Part shown: piece by piece, positions 27,240 through 30,447 of the stretch
Layout: the number at the start of each line of letters is the position of its first letter
Position numbering within the stretch: the stretch's first letter is position 1
Assembly: GCA_025934025.1 (NCBI GenBank)
Contig: JAICYU010000005.1
Location: 1 to 40,569 of the forward strand
Direction: 5' to 3'
Source of the DNA: Terriglobales bacterium
GTDB lineage: Bacteria; Acidobacteriota; Terriglobia; Terriglobales; Acidobacteriaceae
DNA length: 40,569 bases
Made by a program: the position numbers and the translations under genes
The notes under the pieces: generated by a model
Database searches by the model: none
Seen by the model: only the letters and a program-made list of their open reading frames with translations
What the model was told of the DNA's origin: nothing

Positions 27240-27462
27240 AGCGCCGGAGGCGCGGCAGGAGTTAGCCCAGGGCGTGAGCCCTGGGTAGACGGTCGGAAAA
27301 GAGGGAAGCCCCAGCGGGGCGACAGAAGCGAGGCGCGCTGAGTTGGACGCTTTTGATACGGCGCTCATTTTAATTGTGCCGCCCCTCCGGGGCTCCGAAT
27401 CGTTATTGCACGTTTTCCCAGCGCTTCCGCGCTGGGCTAACTCCTGCCGCGCCTACGGCGCT
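27240..27462. repeat. Inverted-repeat intergenic element between carA and carB
   Basis: 34-bp arms 27240-27273 (AGCGCCGGAGGCGCGGCAGGAGTTAGCCCAGGGC) and 27429-27462 (reverse complement AGCGCCGTAGGCGCGGCAGGAGTTAGCCCAGCGC), 2 mismatches, with internal hairpins. Confidence 0.85.
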
Positions 27463-27521: not shown

Positions 27522-28655
27522 TCATCTCCCCGTCCACTCCTCCATCATCTTCACGAAATCTCCAAACAGATAATGCGAGTCGTGCGGGCCGGGCGAGGCT
27601 TCAGGGTGATACTGCACGCTGAACAACGGCAGCGTGCGGTGACGCAAACCCTCCAGAGTGTTGTCGTTTAGGTCAATATGCGTTTTGATGATCTCGGATT
27701 CCTTGAGCGAGTCCGGATCCACGGCAAAGTTGTGGTTGTGGGCTGTGATTTCGATCTTGCCGGTCTCCAGCTGCTTTACCGGATGATTGCCGCCGTGATG
27801 CCCGAATTTCAATTTATAGGTGCGGCCGTGCAGCGCCAGCCCGATCAACTGATGGCCCAGACAGATGCCGAAGATGGGAGTTTTGCACATCAGCCGCCGG
27901 ATGTTTTCCTGAGCGTAGCTACACGGTTCGGGGTCGCCCGGTCCATTAGAAAGAAAAACGCCGTCAGGATTCAGCGCCAGCACATCTTCCGCTGAGGTCA
28001 CGGCCGGAACAACCGTTACGCGGCAGCCTTGGTCCACGAGCATGCGCAGAATGTTCTGCTTGATGCCGTAATCGTAGGCAACCACGTGTTTGCTTGGCGG
28101 CTGGTCTTTCACGCCCACAACTTCTGTTGGCTCGTGCGAGCGCGTTCCCATTTCCCACTGATAGCGCTGCTTGGTGGTGACCACTCGCGCCAAGTCGGTG
28201 CCGTCCATTTTGCGGATGCCGCGCGCTTTGGCCACCAGCTTTTCCGGATCGCTCTCGATGGAGGAGATCACACCGCGCATAACGCCGTGCGTGCGCAGAT
28301 GGCGGACCAGGGCACGGCTGTCAATATCGGCGATGACAGGAATTTTGAATTTTTCCAGGTACTCGTCCGTCACCTGCTGCGAGCGCCAATTGGAGCTGAT
28401 GGGAGAGAACTCACGCACCACGAGACCTTCAATAAAAGGATGTGTGGCTTCGTTATCGTCAGGATTGGTGCCGTAGTTGCCGATCTCAGGGTTGGTGAGG
28501 ACTACGATCTGGCCGGCATACGAAGGGTCCGTGAAAATTTCCTGGTAGCCGGTGAGCGAGGTATTAAAAACAACTTCCCCGTAACATTCGCCTTTCGCGC
28601 CGTGGCCTCTGCCGCTGAAGATCCTGCCATCTTCCAGCGCAAGGATTGCCTGCAT
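27522..28655 (-). CDS. carA: Carbamoyl-phosphate synthase small subunit
   Basis: [40 protein letters not shown], glutaminase [32 protein letters not shown]. Confidence 0.98.
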
Positions 28656-28758: not shown

Positions 28759-29292
28759 TCAGTCTCCCGCGTGCGCGCTGCTCTCTTTGTAAAAGCCTTC
28801 GCTGCCGAAGCCGAACACCCGGTTCGAGCGAGCCCGATAGTTTTCCCAGGCAATCGCCGCGCCGAGTTCAACAAGCTGGGGCGTGGAGAAGCGCTGCTGC
28901 AAACGCTGCCGGAGCTCAGCACTCACATTGGCAGGAGTGGAGCTAAGCGCGTCCGACAGTTCGAGCACCAGCTTCTGGTCAGAGTCGAAGAGATTACTTT
29001 CCCGGAACCAATTCAGATTACGGAGTTGATCGTCGCTGAGGCCTGCCGCCTTACCTGCGGCAGAGTTGATGTCAATTCAAAACGGACATTCCACCAGCTT
29101 GGCTGCGCGGATTTGCGCCAGCACTTTCAGCTTGTGCGCGACGAGATTGGTCTTCTCCAGCGCCTGACCGAATTTTGCATAAGGAATGAGCACGCCAGGA
29201 TGAGTGGCCACGGTCTGAAGCGGCGCAATGTCCCTGCCCAGACGCTTGTGGGCGAACTTAAAGATGAGAGCGACCTTGAAGGCTTCAAACAT
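28759..29292 (-). CDS. Carboxymuconolactone decarboxylase/AhpD-like protein with in-frame UGA at 29079-29077 (candidate selenoprotein; CPFU)
   Basis: Track ORFs 29077..29292 and 28759..28968 are in one frame; reading through TGA gives ...LAQIRAAKLVECPF[U]IDINSAAGKAAGLSDDQLRNLNWFRESNLFDSDQKLVLELSDAL...LVELGAAIAWENYRARSNRVFGFGSEGF. SD AGGAGGT 6 nt before the ATG. Confidence 0.8.
29043..29063 (-). promoter_or_regulatory. Candidate bacterial SECIS stem-loop
   Basis: RNA 5'-CUGCCGC AGGUAAG GCGGCAG-3': perfect 7-bp stem, loop containing GGU, loop starting 20 nt after the UGA. Confidence 0.6.
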
Positions 29293-29356
29293 TGAAAGAC
29301 CTCCTGCGTGAAAGATTCAAATCGTTTCAACAGCGCTTCAGAAATTTTTGAGAAAA

Positions 29357-29968
29357 TTAACGCAGTATGCCCAGTTTATCCACGGGCCAGTAACCAAAAA
29401 CCGCTTTGCCGTAAATGTAGCTGCGGTTGACCGGGCCGAAATCGCGACTGTCGTTCGACATGGAGCGATGGTCTCCCAGCACGAAGTAGGTGTTTGCTGG
29501 AATGTAGGTCTCCGGATAAGAGCGCAAGTCTTCGTATTCAGGAGGGACATAAGCCTCGACGATCAGCTTGCCATTCACGTAAACGCGGCCACGGCTGATG
29601 CGCACATCATCCCCGGGAAGACCGATCACACGCTTGATAAAGCTCTTGCGGGTGTCGCGCGGATAACGGAACACGATGATGTCGCCGCGCTCGATGCTCT
29701 CCCAGTGATACACCATCTTGTTGATGAAAATGCGTTCCTGATCTTCCAGACCGGGCTCCATGCTGCCGCCTTCCACTTTCACCGGCTGGTAAACGAACAG
29801 GATTATGAAGAAGGAAACGACGATGGAGAAAAAGAAGTCGCGCACCCAGGAATGAAGCACGCGCAGACCGCTGGGCGGCGCCACGGCAGGCTGGCTCGGT
29901 TGTTCGGACTGCTCCACTGGCTTGATGGTCCTCGTTAGCAGTAGTTTGCCGCATTCAACCCGGTTCAA
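29357..29968 (-). CDS. lepB: Signal peptidase I
   Basis: GGSMEPGLEDQERIFINKMVYH, GDIIVFRYPRDTRKSFIKRVIGLPGD, YFVLGDHRSMSNDSRDFGPV. Confidence 0.96.
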   Translation of the reverse strand: MNRVECGKLLLTRTIKPVEQSEQPSQPAVAPPSGLRVLHSWVRDFFFSIVVSFFIILFVYQPVKVEGGSMEPGLEDQERIFINKMVYHWESIERGDIIVFRYPRDTRKSFIKRVIGLPGDDVRISRGRVYVNGKLIVEAYVPPEYEDLRSYPETYIPANTYFVLGDHRSMSNDSRDFGPVNRSYIYGKAVFGYWPVDKLGILR

Positions 29969-30000: not shown

Positions 30001-30447
30001 ATGAAATACCTTTCCGGCCTTATAGTTCTCGCCTGCGCGCTCTCTTTGACTCATGGACAGCTACGAGCGCAGTCGAATATTCCGGCATACCACAATGCTC
30101 CGCCCGCCAAGGGAGAGAAGCTGCCTGCAGTGCTCACGCAGCAGCAGTTGCATGAATCGGGCATGACTGAGCCCGCGCAAAGAGAAGCTTACAAGGCAGC
30201 AGCCAAGATTCCGAACGTCCTTTATCAGCTACCCTGCTTCTGCTATTGCGACCGTCATGCCGGGCACAAGAGCCTGCACAGTTGCTTTGAAGGAACTCAC
30301 GGCGCGAACTGCGGAACCTGCATGGCGGAGGCCCTTTATGCCTACCAGATGAAGAAGAAAGGCTGGACGGTCAGTCAGATACGCGACGGCATCATGCGTC
30401 ATGACTACCAGCAGATTGACCTTCAGAATCCAGCGCCAGTGTTATAG
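30001..30447 (+). CDS. CYCXC/PCYCGC-motif protein, probably exported
   Basis: Signal peptide then LYQLPCFCYCDRHAGHKSLHSCFEGTHGANCGTCMAEALYAYQMKKKGWTVSQIRDGI. Confidence 0.82.
   Translation: MKYLSGLIVLACALSLTHGQLRAQSNIPAYHNAPPAKGEKLPAVLTQQQLHESGMTEPAQREAYKAAAKIPNVLYQLPCFCYCDRHAGHKSLHSCFEGTHGANCGTCMAEALYAYQMKKKGWTVSQIRDGIMRHDYQQIDLQNPAPVL

Follow-up and report, generated by a model that had tools for sequence, protein, structure and literature searches.

The question raised by this locus is whether an in-frame TGA, which divides a minus-strand reading frame in a 40,569-nt stretch of DNA from a Terriglobales bacterium (the whole stretch is referred to here as the window), ends a short protein or is read as selenocysteine (Sec) within a longer one. 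An earlier note on the sequence had favoured the second reading, and the frame, the decoding machinery, the relatives of the gene and the RNA downstream of the codon are considered here in turn.

Reading frame, neighbourhood and fold

The frame runs on the minus strand from an ATG at 29292 to 28759, and its sole internal stop is the TGA at 29079-29077; it terminates with a further TGA at 28761-28759. A Shine-Dalgarno sequence, AGGAGGT (29299..29305, minus strand), is followed 6 nt further on by the ATG. The coordinates given in the earlier note for the ATG, the AGGAGGT, the internal TGA and the end of the frame all agree with the sequence, as does its statement that a single stop separates two minus-strand ORFs of one frame that is otherwise open. 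Translation through the stop gives a coding sequence of 177 aa (28759..29292, minus strand), in which codon 72 (UGA, 29077..29079) occupies, by codon comparison with homologues, the place of the second Cys of a CxxC motif. The motif reads C69-P70-F71-U72 (CPFU where CxxC is expected), within the stretch ...AAKLVECPFUIDINSAAGKAAGLSDDQ..., and homologues align on both sides of the TGA along the whole length, which goes beyond chance. An antisense open frame of 174 aa is also present (window 28771-29295, plus strand); homologues favour the minus strand.

The upstream neighbour is lepB (signal peptidase I; 29360..29968, minus strand), identified by Pfam (Peptidase_S26, E 2e-48) and synteny, and the downstream neighbour, identified by the same means, is carA (carbamoyl-phosphate synthase small chain; 27525..28655, minus strand). 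The position of lepB is conserved within the genus only, and carA lies downstream in some congeners. Clustering of neighbouring frames at 81 loci gave no partner common to more than 7 of them, and function can therefore not be read from context. Other elements were noted nearby. Between carB and carA lie two oppositely oriented Acido-Lenti-1 RNAs (RF01687; window 27240-27285, minus strand, and 27417-27462, plus strand; 60 and 57 bits), separated by about 130 nt. A protein with a PCYCGC motif (Pfam PF13798) is encoded at window 30004-30447 (plus strand), and a cluster of similar proteins is found near the gene in some congeners.

Pfam CMD (PF02627) matches the protein at E 2e-4 and 21.7 bits, a little short of its gathering score (23). 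Among NCBIfam models it matches NF053654, GroundWater_YciW, best (E 4.6e-25, 88.4 bits, against a curated cut-off of 310 bits), and phmmer links the protein to 2gmy at E 3e-6. The solved relatives 2gmy, 2ijc and 7xw1 are small CMD/AhpD proteins whose CxxC aligns with CPFU in the alignments displayed. An AlphaFold model built from a 13-sequence alignment has a mean pLDDT of 89 and nine helices; with this model Foldseek returns CMD-type structures at probability 1.00, including Pseudomonas AhpD and the debrominase Bmp8, the best solved structures being 2o4d, 2ijc, 6ohi and 7xw1. In AhpD, a His four residues past the second Cys serves as a proton relay. The corresponding place is Asn76 in the window protein, and among 94 relatives it is Gly in 51, Asn in 35 and His in 8. 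The description of the protein as AhpD-like thus holds for the fold and the CxxC-type motif but not for this His, which is mostly replaced by Gly or Asn, and the chemistry therefore need not match that of AhpD. Taken with the evidence set out below, the gene is almost certainly a single stand-alone oxidoreductase of all-helical CMD/AhpD fold in which UGA 72 is decoded as Sec.

Selenocysteine decoding machinery

The earlier note had named selA, selB, selC and selD as the genes to look for. The genome that carries the window encodes a tRNA-Sec (selC) with a UCA anticodon (74 bits), selB (375 bits) and selA (499 bits, the gene being cut by a contig end); a search of the assembly (3.66 Mb, 362 contigs) for selD gave nothing over the cut-off. 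Among congeners selD is mostly present, usually with an in-frame TGA of its own (L160-L164 and others), so that their selenophosphate synthetase is probably itself a selenoprotein. In four of the congeners that were read (L160, L161, L162 and L164) selD adjoins tldD. A break between contigs at this usual site was considered as the cause of the missing selD and rejected, since the site in the window's genome (L165, G000:C50) is assembled and carries a short-chain dehydrogenase instead; selD has therefore moved, is unassembled or has been lost.

If it has been lost, the Sec codon would be real in the lineage and this strain would make only a truncated product of 71 aa, a reading consistent with the missing selD and with the occupation of its syntenic place by another gene. 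However, the strain has kept selA, selB and tRNA-Sec as well as the UGA gene and its hairpin, and absence of selenophosphate is therefore unlikely. Against it also stand the small size of the fragmented assembly, compared with 4.9-6.9 Mb in most congeners, the truncation of selA itself by a contig end, and the retention of selD in most congeners. An incomplete machinery is accordingly considered very unlikely, and decoding of UGA 72 as Sec remains the preferred reading, with selD the sole exception to otherwise concordant support from the alternation of UGA and Cys, from tRNA-Sec, selA and selB, and from the constrained hairpin. The gene and the machinery also tend to occur together: in 300 genomes of the family, a true tRNA-Sec is found in 32 of the 36 that have the gene versus 100 of the 264 that lack it (Fisher p 3.5e-9, uncorrected for relatedness). 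The four gene-bearing genomes without a tRNA-Sec (G051, G170, G211 and G297) are drafts of 200 to 850 contigs.

Codon 72 and the downstream hairpin

Of the 129 loci at which codon 72 was read, 115 have TGA, 13 have Cys and one has Ser (TCG), a 115:13 ratio of TGA to Cys that is not a frequency, because some genomes are present twice (from two collections) and distant TGA and Cys paralogues were added by choice. The first Cys of the motif is kept at all 129 loci, and the alignment of Cys or Sec with the UGA that the earlier note anticipated is seen in 128 of them. Among 300 genomes from the family, 36 have a close relative (39-84% identity), each with an in-frame TGA, and wherever such a sequence was read the TGA lies at codon 72. 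The motif, read residue by residue in the relatives from 30 of the 36 genomes, is C-P-F-U in 29 and C-P-V-U in one. Extra stops, which the earlier note had regarded as a possible refutation, are not a feature of the close relatives; one second gene copy among the 36 genomes reads with two in-frame TGA codons. A scan of named genomes yielded 80 loci, in the genus of 'Candidatus Angelobacter sp. Gp1-AA117' and other Acidobacteriota, and also in Gemmatimonadota, Planctomycetota, Verrucomicrobiota, Rubrobacteraceae, Rokubacteria, Myxococcales and others. A more distant CMD/AhpD paralogue (L147-L152, L154 and L155) has C-E-Y-U, C-D-Y-U or C-Q-Y-U, with the UGA at the same position and a different, repeated-looking sequence after the motif; its Cys forms are L139-L144.

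These data bear on the possibility that the TGA is a nonsense mutation in a dead gene, or a wrong base call, as might be supposed from one stop dividing a frame in a single assembly of many contigs. Such a reading is exceedingly improbable and was rejected on the conservation of the TGA, which 115 homologues, independently assembled and spread over several phyla, have at this very codon; in congeners whose copies are full-length, the coding sequence to either side of it is 70-79% conserved, and synonymous constraint extends past it. A sequencing error at 29077-29079, the other refutation that had been foreseen, is excluded because the TGA is common to independent assemblies from many projects.

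Past the UGA, folding and the published constraints on bacterial SECIS elements (bSECIS) predict a hairpin, CTGCCGC-AGGTAAG-GCGGCAG (29043..29063, minus strand), which starts 13 nt beyond the codon and folds at -13.8 kcal/mol. It has a stem of 7 bp or more and a 7-nt apical loop, AGGUAAG, with G at loop position 2, and 20 nt separate the UGA from the loop. The bSECIS model specifies an apical loop of 3-9 nt with G in the first two loop positions, a stem of 4-16 bp, a UGA-to-loop distance of 16-37 nt and an MFE <= -7.5 (PMC13188914), and the window hairpin satisfies all four published constraints. Folding energy itself gave no signal: the 45 nt past the UGA in the window are not unusual against synonymous recodings (p 0.53) or dinucleotide shuffles (z -0.96), and across the family the mean z against synonymous recodings is -0.38, versus -0.03 to -0.28 in control segments. 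Folding energy was therefore set aside, and the case for a SECIS is built on the position of the hairpin, on codon choice and on covariation. A scan with Rfam gave no match at the selenoprotein gene.

In nearly all relatives TCTGC(C)-N3-(G)GCAGA is found at +15 to +29 of the UGA, and the search for a SECIS suggested by the earlier note thus finds both a SECIS-like hairpin and a region under synonymous constraint. The Ser codon of the hairpin is TCT in 90 of 94 cases, compared with 47 of 689 in the rest of these genes (7%), and the Arg codon is AGA or AGG in 89 of 90, compared with 95 of 1060 in the rest (9%), a synonymous constraint with p about 1e-77 for each arm. The pair +14/+30 alternates between CG, TA and GC in 71 of 83 non-redundant sequences versus 31 expected; none of 10,000 permutations reaches the observed value, with relatedness not fully corrected, and a register slid by -2 also scores fairly high (67 vs 74, all standard pairs counted). 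Members of NF053654 have GCTGCC-GTG-GGCAGC at the same place, the outer pair T15-A29 being changed on both sides to G15-C29. One clade, made up of the window and the two relatives closest to it (L032 and L037), has lost the usual register and carries a shifted hairpin instead, in which L032 has T-A changed to C-G on both sides. In relatives with Cys the hairpin is not kept, with 0 to 3 of its 5 core pairs present. At the Ser locus, from Rokubacteria (L107), TCG replaces the UGA, a Cys stands one residue earlier (CPCS) and the SECIS-like hairpin is nearly intact (4 of 5 core pairs); Sec may recently have been lost there, leaving a fossil SECIS.

tRNA-Trp can in principle read through UGA, yet insertion of Trp, or of another amino acid by near-cognate readthrough, is scarcely credible here and was rejected on the conservation pattern, as codon 72 alternates with Cys and never with Trp (Ser occurring once), the same gene also uses UGA as its terminal stop, the genome has Sec machinery and the hairpin arms past the UGA are constrained. 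Decoding as Sec is thus retained. The genes together provide a clean alignment of bacterial SECIS elements with covariation, including a clade with a register shift, and the sequence rules of SelB recognition could therefore be tested with it outside Escherichia coli.

Proposed chemistry and relation to known selenoproteins

In the mechanism proposed here, SelB and tRNA-Sec would decode codon 72 as Sec, guided by the downstream hairpin, and Cys69 and Sec72 would form a CxxU redox pair. By analogy with CxxC-type CMD/AhpD proteins, Sec72 would most likely be the attacking residue (peroxidatic or reductive) and Cys69 would resolve the intermediate. The probable substrate is a hydroperoxide or another electrophile, and electrons may be supplied by a thioredoxin- or lipoamide-type donor. 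As the earlier note foresaw, an ORF caller that applies the standard code splits or truncates the gene at its internal TGA; this happens in each of these genomes, and what is then easily missed in annotation would be a redox enzyme that depends on selenium and is common among soil Acidobacteriota and their relatives.

A Sargasso Sea study of 2005 (PMC1088965) described selenoproteins with CxxU, both AhpD-like (COG2128, YciW) and of the CMD-domain type, and these appear in reviews and current lists (PMC9312934, PMC13188914), which bears out the background given in the earlier note; the window gene belongs to this kind of selenoprotein, known since 2005. The published COG2128/CMD examples, likened here by description, share with it the CMD/AhpD type, the CxxU motif and a bacterial SECIS hairpin. 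AhpD of M. tuberculosis (1knc, 1gu9) has the same all-helical AhpD-type fold and a CxxC-type redox pair, but it is a weak structural match only (Foldseek E about 1.3), has Cys rather than Sec, and the place of its relay His is taken in the window family by Asn or Gly, with His retained rarely. The best matches in sequence and fold are Pseudomonas PA0269/AhpD (2o4d, 2ijc, 7xw1), Atu0492 (2gmy) and Bmp8 (6ohi), which have CxxC at the aligned place in the alignments displayed, with Cys for Sec, and are 16-22% identical to the window protein. YnjA of E. coli is a Cys-containing relative (about 30% identity over 92% of the length) and, unlike the window protein, is not a selenoprotein.

The closest comparison is with NF053654, 'YciW-related (seleno)protein', for which a literature search found no paper on the GroundWater_YciW family. 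It shares with the window protein the fold region, C-x-F-U, the UGA codon and the hairpin distance, but is about 31-33% identical over the aligned part, and its motif is followed by QDINAA rather than the IDINSA or VDINSA of the window group. A true member of NF053654 in the same phylum scores 318 bits, whereas the window protein (88 bits) and the ten relatives scanned (98-127 bits) all fall below the cut-off. NF053654 is a sister group of the window's CPFU proteins, and from these scores the CPFU group appears not yet to be delimited as a family. It is tentatively suggested, with somewhat less than even confidence, that CPFU proteins form a distinct, undelimited selenoprotein subfamily across soil Acidobacteriota, Gemmatimonadota, Planctomycetota, Verrucomicrobiota, Rubrobacteraceae and others, whose SECIS has been rebuilt in a shifted register in the window's clade and which, mostly without the relay His of AhpD, may act on a substrate other than that of AhpD, for example through a reductive reaction like that of Bmp8, a debrominase with the CMD fold.
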